Assembly (NCBI RefSeq): GCF_900143005.1
Contig: NZ_FRCS01000006.1
Span: 186,001-250,000 of the forward strand
DNA: 64,000 bases
Direction of reading: 5' to 3'
DNA from: Cryptosporangium aurantiacum
Lineage (GTDB): Bacteria > Actinomycetota > Actinomycetes > Mycobacteriales > Cryptosporangiaceae
Shown here: positions 39,075-47,733 of the stretch, piece by piece
Position numbering within the stretch: the first letter of the stretch is position 1
How the letters are laid out: each line of letters begins with the position of its first letter
Translations under genes and position numbers: made by a program
The notes under the pieces: generated by a model
What the model was told of the DNA's origin: nothing
Database searches by the model: none
What the model saw: the letters and a program-made list of their open reading frames with translations, nothing else

Positions 39075-40301
39075 TCAGGCGCGGACGAAGTCCAGCGGCA
39101 CCGAGCGTGTTCCCCACTCGGCCCAGATCGCCATCTCCGGTTCGCCTGCCGGCCGGAACGCGGTGCTGCGCGCGAGGGCCTCCTCCAGCGTGATCCGCAT
39201 CATCATCCGGGCGAGTGGGGCGCCCGGGCAGCTGTGCGTGCCCCGCCCGAACGAGATGTGCTGCGCGATGTTCGGCCGGTGGAGCACGAAGTTGTCTCCG
39301 TCGGGGAAGACCCGCTCGTCGCGGTTGGCCGAGGTGTAGACCAGCGCGATCGGGTCGTCCTTGCGGATCAGCTGTCCCGACAGGACGACGTCCTCGCGCG
39401 CGGTGCGGGCCATGCCCCGGTAGGGCGAGTAGAGCCGGAGGAACTCCTCGATCGCGGCCGGAATGAGCTGCGGCTCGGCCCGCAACCGGTCCTGGAGGTC
39501 GGTGTCCCGGCTCAGGTGCACGAACATGTTTCCGGTGAACACGCTCGGCGCGACCATCCCGGTGACGATGAGCTGCCGCACGCAGCCCAGCACCATCGCC
39601 TCGGGCAGTGGTGCGCCCTGGTACTCGGCGGCGAGCAGGGCCGCGGTGAGGTCGTCGTCCGGGTCGTAGTCGCCGGCGCGTCGATCGTCGATGATGCCCT
39701 GGGCGATCTCGTAGAGACGGCGGCTCAGCCGGATGACCACCTCGTGATTCAGCACCTGGATCGCGTCGACGTACTCGCCGCTGACGTCCTTGATCTCCGC
39801 GGAGACGGCGACGTCGAGGTTGAAGAAGTGCGCGAACACCGCCGCCGGGAACTTGTGCGCGTACTGCTTGCAGACGTCGACCCAGCGCGCGTCGATCAGG
39901 GGGTCGAGCAGGTCGACCGCGACCGCACGCGCCTTCGGCTCCATCGCGCGCATCTTCGGTGGGGTGAAGAACGCGTTGATCACCCGCCGGTAGGCCAGGT
40001 GCTCGGGCGGGTCCAGGTGTAACGGCGGCCGGACGCCGGTGAACGCGAACTTCGGGATCGCGTTCTGCTTCGACGTCGTGAAGTGCTCGATGTCGGTGAT
40101 GACCGAGAGCACCTCGTCGTAGCCCAGAGCCGCCCAGAACCCGCCGTACTCCTGGCTGCGCGCGATCGGGCAGCGGGGACGCAGCTGCGCGAACTCCTCG
40201 TGGGCGCTGGTGAACGTCTCCCCCGGGCGGACCGGGTCGAAGTCGTGCGCCGCCCGTCGGTCGTCACCCTCGGGACCGGACTCCGGATGCTGGCGGGTCA
40301 T
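39075..40301 (-). CDS. Cytochrome P450 with atypical helix I (P450-A)
   Basis: The 408-residue P450 has the ExxR region (AIEEFLRLYSPYRGMARTA) and the heme ligand loop FGRGTHSCPGAPLARM (Cys near residue 356). In helix I, where AGxDT is expected, it reads LIVTGMVAPSVFTGN (about 242-256): the acid is Val, the alcohol Ala, and Pro follows. It therefore lacks the normal proton-delivery pair for oxygen activation. ATG at 40301 with GGAGGA upstream is preferred over a longer frame to 40406. It diverges from an ABC/PaaX operon containing a related P450 with the same substitution. No ferredoxin gene is adjacent. Confidence 0.92.
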   Translation of the reverse strand: MTRQHPESGPEGDDRRAAHDFDPVRPGETFTSAHEEFAQLRPRCPIARSQEYGGFWAALGYDEVLSVITDIEHFTTSKQNAIPKFAFTGVRPPLHLDPPEHLAYRRVINAFFTPPKMRAMEPKARAVAVDLLDPLIDARWVDVCKQYAHKFPAAVFAHFFNLDVAVSAEIKDVSGEYVDAIQVLNHEVVIRLSRRLYEIAQGIIDDRRAGDYDPDDDLTAALLAAEYQGAPLPEAMVLGCVRQLIVTGMVAPSVFTGNMFVHLSRDTDLQDRLRAEPQLIPAAIEEFLRLYSPYRGMARTAREDVVLSGQLIRKDDPIALVYTSANRDERVFPDGDNFVLHRPNIAQHISFGRGTHSCPGAPLARMMMRITLEEALARSTAFRPAGEPEMAIWAEWGTRSVPLDFVRA

Positions 40302-40514
40302 GACGGTCCTCCGAGAGCTGACGGGCTGAACGGCACGATCGGACGTTAGCCGAGAGAGGTCAACCTTCGCCAGATCGTTGACGGCAGTAGCGAAGTAGAA
40401 GAACATGGGGTCGGCCGATTGACGTGACTCCGGTCACCCGGCTCCTCTCGATCGACGGATCCGCCCTCGAAATGCGAGTTCAGACGTGGTGCGGAGAAAG
40501 GCAAGGTCGATGCA

Positions 40515-41696
40515 ATGACGCCCGGCACGCCAACGGATTCGACGACACCGATCATCGAGGTGCGTAACCTCGTCAAGCGCTTCCGCCGCGAGAGCGGCGC
40601 GGTGGTCCACGCGATCGACGACGTGTCGTTCACCGTCGGCACCGGTGACTTCGTCGTCCTCCTGGGCCCGAGCGGCTGCGGCAAGACGACGCTGTTGCGC
40701 GCGATCGCCGGCCTGGAGACGCCCGATCAGGGCACGATCCGCATCGGCGGCCGCACCCAGTACTCGTCGGCCGAGCGCATCGCGGTCCCGCCGGAGCGCC
40801 GCAACATCAGCATGGTCTTCCAGTCCTACGCGCTCTGGCCGCACATGACGGCGTTCGACAACGTCGCGTACCCGCTGCGCAGCCGCCGGGGCCGTCCGGG
40901 CAAGCGCGAGATCGCCGAACGGGTCCGCGCCGCGCTCGAGCTCGTCGGGGTCGGCGAGCTGGAGCGCCAGTACCCCGGTCAGCTCAGCGGCGGCCAGCAG
41001 CAGCGGATCGCGCTGGCCCGTGCGCTGGTCAGCAACGACGAGCTCGTGCTCTTCGACGAGCCGCTCTCCAATGTCGACGCGAAGGTCCGCGAGCAGCTGC
41101 GCTTCGAGCTGTTGTCGATGCAGCGGAAGCTGGGCTTCTCCGCGCTGTTCGTCACCCACGACCAGACCGAGGCGATGGAGCTGGCCCACCGGATCGCCGT
41201 GCTCGACAGCGGCCGGATCGTGCAGTTCGGTACCCCGCAGGAGATCTACGCCCGCCCGGCGACGCGCTACGTCGCGAAGTTCATCGGCGCGATCAACGAG
41301 TCGCTCGGCACGGTCGCCGTCATCGAGGGGAACGTCGCCACCGTCGACACCGACCTCGGGCGCGTCGTCGGGCGAACCCACGGACGCACCGCCACGGTGG
41401 GCGAGCGTGTCGCGGTGATGTGGCGCCCGGAGCGTGCGGTGCTGACCCGCGACGAGCCGTCCACGGTCAACCGATGGCCGGGTTCGGTCACCGCGTCGCT
41501 GTTCGTCGGCTCCCACACCGAGTACGTGGTCACGCTCGCCGACGGCGACGCGCGGTTGTGGAGTCCCCGGTCGGACGTGGTCGCACCCGGCTCGTCCGCA
41601 TGGGTCTCGGTGACCGAGGAGGACGTCCTCGTCCTCCCGGTGGACGACGACGCGCCGGCGCCGGTTCCCGACGCAGTGCTGGAGACGGCGTCGTGA
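40515..41696 (+). CDS. ABC importer ATP-binding protein (PotA/FbpC type with TOBE domain)
   Basis: The 393-residue ATPase shows Walker A (VLLGPSGCGKTTLLRAIAGL), Q-loop (VFQSYALWPHMTAFDN), signature (GQLSGGQQQRIALARALV), Walker B (LVLFDEPLSNVDAKVREQLR), switch His (FVTHDQTEAMELAHRIAVLD) and a C-terminal TOBE region from about residue 285. Such ATPases energise uptake of iron, polyamines, phosphonates or similar anions. It is the first gene of the operon that continues with permease, PaaX and P450; its stop overlaps the permease GTG by 4 nt. Confidence 0.93.
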   Translation: MTPGTPTDSTTPIIEVRNLVKRFRRESGAVVHAIDDVSFTVGTGDFVVLLGPSGCGKTTLLRAIAGLETPDQGTIRIGGRTQYSSAERIAVPPERRNISMVFQSYALWPHMTAFDNVAYPLRSRRGRPGKREIAERVRAALELVGVGELERQYPGQLSGGQQQRIALARALVSNDELVLFDEPLSNVDAKVREQLRFELLSMQRKLGFSALFVTHDQTEAMELAHRIAVLDSGRIVQFGTPQEIYARPATRYVAKFIGAINESLGTVAVIEGNVATVDTDLGRVVGRTHGRTATVGERVAVMWRPERAVLTRDEPSTVNRWPGSVTASLFVGSHTEYVVTLADGDARLWSPRSDVVAPGSSAWVSVTEEDVLVLPVDDDAPAPVPDAVLETAS

Positions 41697-46682: not shown

Positions 46683-46878
46683 TCGTCCTCGCCGTAGCGA
46701 AGGACACCGACACGTTCGTCAGCGCACCTGGCCACCGCACGGTCAGCGCCGCGGTGCTGCGGCCCGGTCGCGCCGAGAGGGTGTGTCCCGGACAGCCGTG
46801 ACGATCGCGTCCGGCGGCGTCGAGCGGCGCCGCCGGGCACCGGGTCCGAACCGTCCGCGCATGGGCGAGGATGTCTGC

Positions 46879-47733
46879 ATGAGCACGCCGAGCGGTGACG
46901 AGTCGGACGAGGTCGCGCTCCGTCCGGAGAGCCTGATCCTCACCCTTTTCGGCGCCCACGTATTCGGCCGGCCCGTGCTGCTGGCCGGCACCAGCATCAT
47001 CGACGCTCTGCAGCGCGTCGGCGTCTCACCGCACGCCACCCGCTCCGCCCTCGCCCGGACGGTGAAGAAGAACCGGCTGACGAGCCGGCGCAAGGGACGC
47101 CAGGTCTACTACGGCTTGACTCCGACGTCGATCGAGGCGCTCAACGACGGCTACGTCACCATCTGGCGGAGCGGCGCGGTCAACCGTCACTGGGACGGCC
47201 GGTGGACGCTGCTCAGCTTCCGGCTGCCGGAGTCCTGGCAGCGCCAGCGGCACGAGTTGCGGACACGCCTGCTCTGGGCCGGATTCGGACCGCTCCAGGG
47301 TGGCCTGTGGATCGCACCCTCCGAGCCGGACCTCGAGCAGATCCTCGCCGGTCTGGAGGCAGCCGAGCACGTGCGCGCCTTCGTCGCCCGGCCGCACTCG
47401 GGTCTTGATGTCGCGGCGATGATCCACGACGTCTGGGACATCCCCAACCTGGCGCACCGCTATGAACGCTTCATCCGGCGCTGGGACGGCGGCGTCGCCG
47501 ACCGGGCACACACCGATCCGCTCGCCCGCCAGCTGGCGCTGCAGGAGGAATGGCGTCTTGCCCTGCGCCAGGATCCGCAGTTGCCGGTCGAGCTGCTCCC
47601 CGCGCCCTGGCCGGCCGACGAAGCGCAGCGGCTGTTCCGCCGGTTGCACGCCGAGGTCGAGATACCGGCGCGCGCGGTGGTGACTTCGGCGTTCGACACC
47701 ATCCCGGCCCCTCTTCCCGATCAGGCGGACTGA
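46879..47733 (+). CDS. PaaX-family transcriptional regulator (PaaX-2)
   Basis: The 284-residue protein is a close paralogue of PaaX-1, sharing IWRSGAVNRHWDG, RLLWAGFGPLQGGLWIA, DPLARQLALQ and LPAPWPA with it, plus the N-terminal winged helix (IIDALQRVGVSPHATRSALA). It lacks the QPAGS tail. The ATG at 46879 has GAGGA 8 nt upstream; another ATG in frame is at 46861. A 196-nt gap after the binding protein suggests its own promoter. Two PaaX proteins over one module imply two regulatory inputs or a heteromer. Confidence 0.9.
   Translation: MSTPSGDESDEVALRPESLILTLFGAHVFGRPVLLAGTSIIDALQRVGVSPHATRSALARTVKKNRLTSRRKGRQVYYGLTPTSIEALNDGYVTIWRSGAVNRHWDGRWTLLSFRLPESWQRQRHELRTRLLWAGFGPLQGGLWIAPSEPDLEQILAGLEAAEHVRAFVARPHSGLDVAAMIHDVWDIPNLAHRYERFIRRWDGGVADRAHTDPLARQLALQEEWRLALRQDPQLPVELLPAPWPADEAQRLFRRLHAEVEIPARAVVTSAFDTIPAPLPDQAD

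Follow-up and report, generated by a model that had tools for sequence, protein, structure and literature searches.

The window considered here is a 64,000-nucleotide stretch of the genome of Cryptosporangium aurantiacum (contig NZ_FRCS01000006.1, positions 186,001 to 250,000). At positions 39075-47733 it contains seven genes of five families, which code for two cytochromes P450 (P450a and P450b), the three parts of an ATP-binding cassette (ABC) importer and two regulators of the PaaX family. This module probably makes up one half, that of uptake and P450s, of a catabolic pathway that is dispersed, aerobic (P450-based) and dependent on coenzyme A (CoA), and whose substrate would be a small compound of the carboxylic-acid type. 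The evidence consists of gene content, the loss of two catalytic motifs, synteny, and the co-occurrence of the P450s with HGD-alpha, which with HGD-beta forms a pair of HGD-D (2-hydroxyacyl-CoA dehydratase-like) subunits that this genome carries on another contig. A literature search for the gene set of the window and of that second locus found no description of it.

Co-occurrence of the P450 Clade with a Second Locus

The P450 clade is rare. Among 396 genomes of the phylum, P450a hits at E<1e-75 come from three (C. aurantiacum, G132, and G311), and strong HGD-alpha hits (E<1e-100) come from the identical three; five other genomes give HGD-alpha hits of 6e-20 or weaker, at 26-34% identity. The chance of the two other genomes coinciding in this way is 1.3e-5, if random placement is assumed and the own genome is excluded. 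For a wider view, contigs of GTDB species were scanned, and the best 80 of 241 confirmed P450 matches were retained, giving 78 loci (L numbers). HGD-alpha was found in all 31 other genomes with the P450 clade first searched (E <1e-110), that is, the 29 behind L032-L071 together with G132 and G311, and in 33 of 40 further P450-clade genomes (E 2e-153 to 5e-75). This genome-level search left out L035, L046, L049, L069, L074, L079, and L084, and L037 and L068 come from the same genomes as L036 and L061. Moreover, across 32 genomes the distances for P450a are correlated with those for HGD-alpha (Mantel r 0.55, a value reached in 0 of 2000 permutations), and the co-occurrence spans Actinomycetota, Bacillota, Pseudomonadota and one Chloroflexi metagenome-assembled genome (MAG), with phyla taken from record titles.

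The HGD-D proteins were first found beside P450s in relatives. In C. aurantiacum the window module lies on contig C6 and the only HGD-D pair on contig C7 (C7:157489-159836), in a locus ordered as PaaX, SBP_bac_3 lipoprotein, permease, ATPase, CapA-type protein, class III CoA-transferase (CaiB), HGD-beta, HGD-alpha, and PaaX. Within C7:148001-168000 (locus L117), the two PaaX genes, both on the minus strand, thus flank a second importer of the SBP_bac_3 type and the CapA-CaiB-HGDb-HGDa genes. The module proposed in an earlier reading of the window, made from its sequence only, is not a complete unit, and in this respect that reading is not supported as it stood; the usual partners (CaiB, the HGD-D pair without conserved cluster ligands, and often CapA) are encoded on the other contig. 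The linkage is direct in Geodermatophilus ruber and Blastococcus, where a window-type operon includes CaiB-HGDb-HGDa, with P450b on one side of them and the binding protein on the other, and in Nonomuraea thailandensis, where a single run reads P450a-P450b-PaaX-SBP3-permease-ATPase-CapA-CaiB-HGDb-HGDa and a relative of the window importer comes after HGD-alpha. At two Nonomuraea loci (L128 and L129), the importer relative in that place is diverged (42-56% identity) and a second CapA-like gene stands with it, and at two others (L047 and L051, the latter cut by a contig end) tblastn found no window-type importer beside the P450s. A Pseudonocardia shows the same two-locus split as C. aurantiacum. 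Around HGD-alpha in 30 genomes (C. aurantiacum and 29 others), the CoA-transferase is present in 28, HGD-beta in 26, PaaX in 21, and CapA in 19, although several of these stretches are cut by contig ends and the CaiB matches in Bacillota are just 32-34% identical.

P450s without the Acid-Alcohol Pair

The P450s had been described from the sequence as devoid of the acid-alcohol pair, and hidden Markov model alignments to solved P450s bear this out. In the I-helix motif GMVAP, present in P450a (39075-40301, minus strand) and in P450b (44397-45593, plus strand), a second member of the same clade by Pfam and alignment, the G falls on the conserved glycine, the V on the acid, and the A on the alcohol. 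Among 27 family members chosen by hand for alignment, G-x-x-A-P, the heme cysteine (C359), ExxR (E287/R290) and the arginine of a PYRG motif are invariant (27/27). At the fetched loci, G[MI][VI]AP occurs in 102 of 124 P450 hit segments and GL[VI]AP in 4, both acid and alcohol being absent in these 106; the rest are 10 frameshifted or truncated pieces (8 from L074) and 8 more distant P450s of 30-44% identity with other I-helix motifs, some of them GHNST or GHGTT. Of the canonical monooxygenase features, the heme-ligand cysteine motif and ExxR are therefore kept, and the pair is replaced by V/I and A. The AlphaFold model of P450a (pLDDT 86.8) has an ordinary P450 fold, with Z ~45 to both P450cam and P450cin.

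These replacements could also mean that the P450s are peroxygenases or non-oxygenating enzymes (catalyzing dehydration or isomerization) and that the module is not a monooxygenase system, an explanation that we consider somewhat unlikely. CYP152 peroxygenases have an Arg-Pro in the I helix, and the A-P of the present family lies at the positions nearest to it (by alignment only, with the best 60 of 425 matches compared). No redox partner is encoded among the seven window genes, which would fit this explanation, as does the loss of both residues in most segments. Exceptions to the acid-alcohol rule named in the part of a published account that was consulted include peroxygenases, P450cin and P450eryF (PMC9366932). 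Against it, ordinary O2-dependent P450s make up most of the nearest relatives by sequence and fold, although the exception P450cin is also one of these relatives (best 60 of 425 matches). Elsewhere, in Nocardioides sp. Iso805N (L034:11275-12618), a gene that looks by eye like a ferredoxin-NADP reductase adjoins P450a, the sole candidate redox partner noticed.

The mechanism that we prefer is one in which the substrate itself makes up for the loss. By an ungapped count back from the family arginine that we match to P450cam R299, the invariant PYRG arginine falls on the position of P450cam V295, presumably a substrate contact. In OleT, according to the portion of PMC10988616 consulted, the substrate carboxylate has been proposed to stand in for the pair in the second protonation. 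Taken together, the position of the arginine and the OleT proposal favor a carboxylate substrate that would be held near the heme by this residue.

HGD-D Subunits without Conserved Cluster Ligands

Residues C84 and C117 of HadB, which we take to be cluster ligands, align with E and T in HGD-alpha, the third HadB ligand lying outside the alignment. In alignments from which short hits had been dropped (37 rows for HGD-alpha, 27 for HGD-beta, 34 for CaiB, and 23 for CapA), no conserved cysteine triplet was found in either HGD-alpha or HGD-beta. A search with the activase model TIGR00241 gave matches in 6 of 14 control genomes and none in that of C. aurantiacum (98.5% complete). Classical 2-hydroxyacyl-CoA dehydratases hold a [4Fe-4S] cluster with three cysteines per subunit and need an activase, as stated in the part of PMC11574389 consulted. 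The present proteins share with them the two HGD-D subunits with a CoA-transferase, and they have neither conserved three-cysteine ligands nor a recognizable activase. In the CaiB-type CoA-transferase the aspartate of IGD, to which we ascribe a catalytic role, is conserved, and CapA keeps a pattern NH...H...HxH that, in our judgment, resembles a metal site.

Importer and Substrate

The importer consists of a PotA/PhnT-like ATPase with a TOBE_2 domain (40515-41696), a fused two-domain, PhnU2-like permease (41693-43477), both assigned by Pfam and equivalog comparison, and a binding lipoprotein (45642-46682; lipobox LAAC by eye) of AfuA/PhnS/MctA-like fold, assigned by Pfam, profile and fold, all on the plus strand. 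The nearest folds to the binding protein are MctA (metal-citrate) and AfuA (Z ~24, ~20% identity) and the nearest profile is that of a pyridoxal-phosphate binder; the ligands of its nearest solved relatives are pyridoxal phosphate, metal-citrate, sugar phosphate or iron. These kin, together with Arg88, invariant in 15 sequences, suggest that the ligand is an anion. In other phyla, the companions of the P450 are genes for MmgE/PrpD, carboxylesterase, CapA and TRAP or TonB. In G132, a family P450 is adjoined by pcaR, pcaH, pcaG, pcaD and a thiolase gene, all above cut-off, as well as by a pcaB-like gene below its cut-offs; in Novosphingobium aromaticivorans, genes for catechol and 3-oxoadipate sit beside a family P450 on plasmid pNL2, and in G311 a Rieske ring oxygenase lies near one. 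The relatives of the binding protein, the accompanying genes and the pca and catechol neighbors favor, as the probable substrate, a carboxylic acid or an ester of one, which may or may not be aromatic. Abscisic acid, a candidate suggested by strains that degrade it, was dropped for lack of evidence; the portion of PMC7996341 consulted names no genes of this kind. P450 clusters for estrogen or polycyclic aromatic hydrocarbons (PAH), considered from literature listings, were set aside too.

The neighbors just mentioned, with the PaaX-type regulators of the window, are also what speaks for an aromatic, phenylacetate-like module, in which the P450s would hydroxylate or O-demethylate an aromatic acid for the beta-ketoadipate or paa route and PaaX would sense an aryl-CoA. 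We regard this explanation as rather doubtful, since no aromatic-ring enzyme is encoded among the seven window genes (flanking genes being assessed by eye only), PaaA/PaaC-family genes lie on contigs C27 and C11 and not on C6, no ring-cleavage gene was recognized by eye in 13 loci (no dedicated search was made), and the solved relatives of the binding protein bind the ligands listed above. The sequence-only reading had supposed a possibly aromatic compound; the protocatechuate genes of G132 and the catechol genes of N. aromaticivorans lend this indirect support, and the binding-protein relatives, with the ligands named above, tell against it.

Another explanation, that an iron (or phosphonate) importer merely adjoins the P450/PaaX set, is improbable. 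The binding protein does belong to the broad FbpA/AfuA/PhnS superfamily, but the equivalog cut-offs for the iron and 2-aminoethylphosphonate binding protein, permease and ATPase were all missed (among the best 25 matches listed for ATPase and permease), and membership in the ferric or phosphonate importers was rejected on this ground. Furthermore, all three importer genes stay with the P450s at 18 of the 31 loci L030-L060 (30 actinobacterial loci and one Hyphomonadaceae MAG, L049), as compared with 1 of 49 other loci by tblastn.

Window Architecture and Synteny

P450a is divergent from the other six genes, its start being most likely at 40301 (a longer open reading frame starts at 40406), and the operon opposite is tightly packed, with overlaps of 4 nt between ATPase and permease, 1 nt between permease and PaaX1, and 4 nt between PaaX1 and P450b. 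All seven proteins pass the Pfam cut-off of their family, which confirms the content and arrangement first read from the sequence (P450, ATPase, permease, PaaX, P450, lipoprotein, PaaX), with the correction that these genes fall into five families and not six. P450a and P450b are 43% identical and PaaX1 and PaaX2 68%, so both pairs are diverged duplicates. Flanking the module, a gene for a small membrane protein beside a TetR-like gene (38330-39013 and 37742-38452) looks unrelated by eye.

The home-made picker of open reading frames used for the neighborhoods mis-framed some genes, and for this reason counts are based on tblastn, with score limits set by us. The window gene order, including both PaaX genes, is reproduced exactly in two Klenkia species (L040 and L041), and the importer, both P450s and at least one PaaX occur together at 15 of the 31 loci L030-L060 and at 0 of the 49 others. 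Contig ends cut L043, L046, L051, L084, and L135, where absence proves nothing; L074 is frameshifted, and the second P450 of L034 is cut by the 10-kb flank. Gene order had been chosen beforehand as a refuting test of the module, and it is kept in relatives; the earlier view of a real, conserved uptake and oxidation module with PaaX-type regulators stands. A chance neighborhood of unrelated genes, which the absence of the P450s from four other genomes of the family (E<=1e-60) might suggest, is refuted by the 1-4 nt overlaps and by an order kept in several actinobacterial genera, and is hardly credible.

Two further observations concern the surroundings of the clade. A family of ~470 amino acids, secreted by its look, occurs near P450s in actinobacteria and sphingomonads (L030:13052-14482, L085:6495-7742, and 12 further loci), with no Pfam match in the three members scanned (L030, L039, and L085). 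On plasmids of the sphingomonads Novosphingobium sp. EMRT-2 (L110), Croceicoccus marinus (L113) and Novosphingobium sp. ES2-1 (L112), the P450 is followed by a LacI regulator and has TonB and CapA genes nearby; L110 and L113 also have TRAP, CoA-transferase and 2-hydroxyacyl-CoA dehydratase genes, and the set looks like the pathway in the form that sphingomonads carry on large plasmids.

PaaX-Family Regulators and the Divergent Promoter

PaaX1 (43477-44400) and PaaX2 (46861-47733, start at 46861 or 46879), both on the plus strand, have the three-domain PaaX architecture by Pfam. They score 123 and 139 bits against the PaaX equivalog TIGR02277, below its cut-off of 264.55; with the PaaA/PaaC-family genes on other contigs, this led to the rejection of phenylacetate pathway membership, in agreement with the sequence-only reading. 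Eight PaaX-family hits occur in the genome, and the window and C7 loci account for four. The C-terminal tail of PaaX1 carries PAGSQ-type repeats (3' end of 43477-44400) that are absent from PaaX2.

Alignment of six homologous gaps places TTGACG (6/6) and AACAT (5/6) boxes in the divergent promoter region (40302-40514), which also holds a GTGA-N6-TCAC palindrome at 40424-40437. This is the single exact copy in the window, and the 21-kb loci L032, L033, L040, and L041 likewise have a single copy, in the same gap; it is degenerate in the gap of a fifth relative. Of the 29 loci L032-L060, 18 lack it and 7 carry it in another place, including L044, just upstream of the ATPase gene. Since chance alone would give ~1.25 copies in 64 kb, only the conserved position is informative, and the palindrome may be a candidate operator, as a PaaX or CRP-type site. 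An operator common to the window and the C7 locus was rejected, since the window has a single palindrome and L117 has none. Dual PaaX control of the module, as proposed from the sequence, is putative.

The Proposed Pathway

From these observations we infer the class of the substrate, the order of steps, the types of reaction and the ligand of the regulators. The lipoprotein, permease and ATPase would import a small anionic compound, and the two P450s, which lack the acid-alcohol pair, would oxidize it or a derivative. The invariant PYRG arginine would hold the substrate carboxylate near the heme, with the substrate acid (or a peroxide) as the source of protons, in line with the proposal for OleT-type P450s. 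An acyl-CoA would then be made by the C7-encoded class III CoA-transferase, and HGD-alpha and HGD-beta, without conserved Fe-S ligands or a recognizable activase, would act on the thioester by non-radical chemistry. The PaaX-family repressors may sense the product and derepress both loci; acyl-CoA is the classical ligand of PaaX. A narrower proposal, offered tentatively, is that the P450 family without its oxygen-activating pair and a relative of the radical 2-hydroxyacyl-CoA dehydratase without cluster or activase are obligate partners in an undescribed aerobic carboxylic-acid pathway, in which the CoA-thioester would be handled with no need of low-potential ketyl chemistry.

Several observations weigh against this pathway. 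HGD-alpha at 1e-15 is absent from 7 of the 40 further P450-bearing genomes, two of which (L081 and L097) are not labeled as MAGs; the searches of the 396 genomes scored at most four of the best first-look candidates per genome, and within its family C. aurantiacum is the only one of five genomes with the P450. The Mantel test had no housekeeping-gene control, so part of r reflects common species history. In C. aurantiacum the two halves are on separate contigs and have different closest kin (Blastococcus, Geodermatophilus, and a Nocardioides for P450a, at 85-86%, and Pseudonocardia, Prauserella and Amycolatopsis for HGD-alpha, at 72%), so their common control is an assumption. Importers also differ by lineage, being AfuA-like, SBP_bac_3-like, TRAP, TonB or, by eye, of the oligopeptide type, which means either many entry routes for one substrate or a family serving several. 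Finally, cysteines are not wholly lost: the first-site (C84) column has one in 7 of 37 HGD-alpha rows, the second-site (C117) column in 0 of 37 with one a column earlier in 3, and one cysteine is common to 16 of 27 HGD-beta rows.

The proposed pathway would turn an isolated oddity into a testable and widespread system, with two co-occurring enzyme families each without residues deemed essential for textbook chemistry. If the narrower proposal is true, the HGD-D fold would gain a new enzyme activity and P450s a new way of delivering protons, both found across several bacterial phyla. Solving the pathway would reveal how oxygen is activated (or avoided) by P450s that lack the pair, what the HGD-D fold does without iron-sulfur clusters, and which environmental compound is used.

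Comparison with Known Systems

Judged on the features tested, the module falls outside the phenylacetate, ferric and classical dehydratase systems. Its regulators are like PaaX, the phenylacetate repressor, in all three domains, but fall far below the equivalog cut-off in a genome whose PaaA/PaaC-family genes are elsewhere. Its importer is like those of the MctA/AfuA/PhnS type in the fold of the binding protein and in a PhnU2/PhnT2-like permease and ATPase, although the binding protein has only ~20% identity and no equivalog cut-off is reached among the matches listed. P450eryF, P450cin, and the CYP152 peroxygenases also do without the full acid-alcohol pair; here, in contrast, both residues are replaced (V/I and A) and followed by P clade-wide, with an invariant PYRG arginine and a catabolic-looking operon. 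Finally, known dehydratase gene sets are HadA-HadI-HadBC and FldA-FldI-FldBC, and the C7 locus is like these 2-hydroxyacyl-CoA dehydratase systems in having a class III CoA-transferase beside two HGD-D subunits, but differs from them in having no conserved three-cysteine ligands in either subunit and no activase match in the genome, and in its linkage to P450s.

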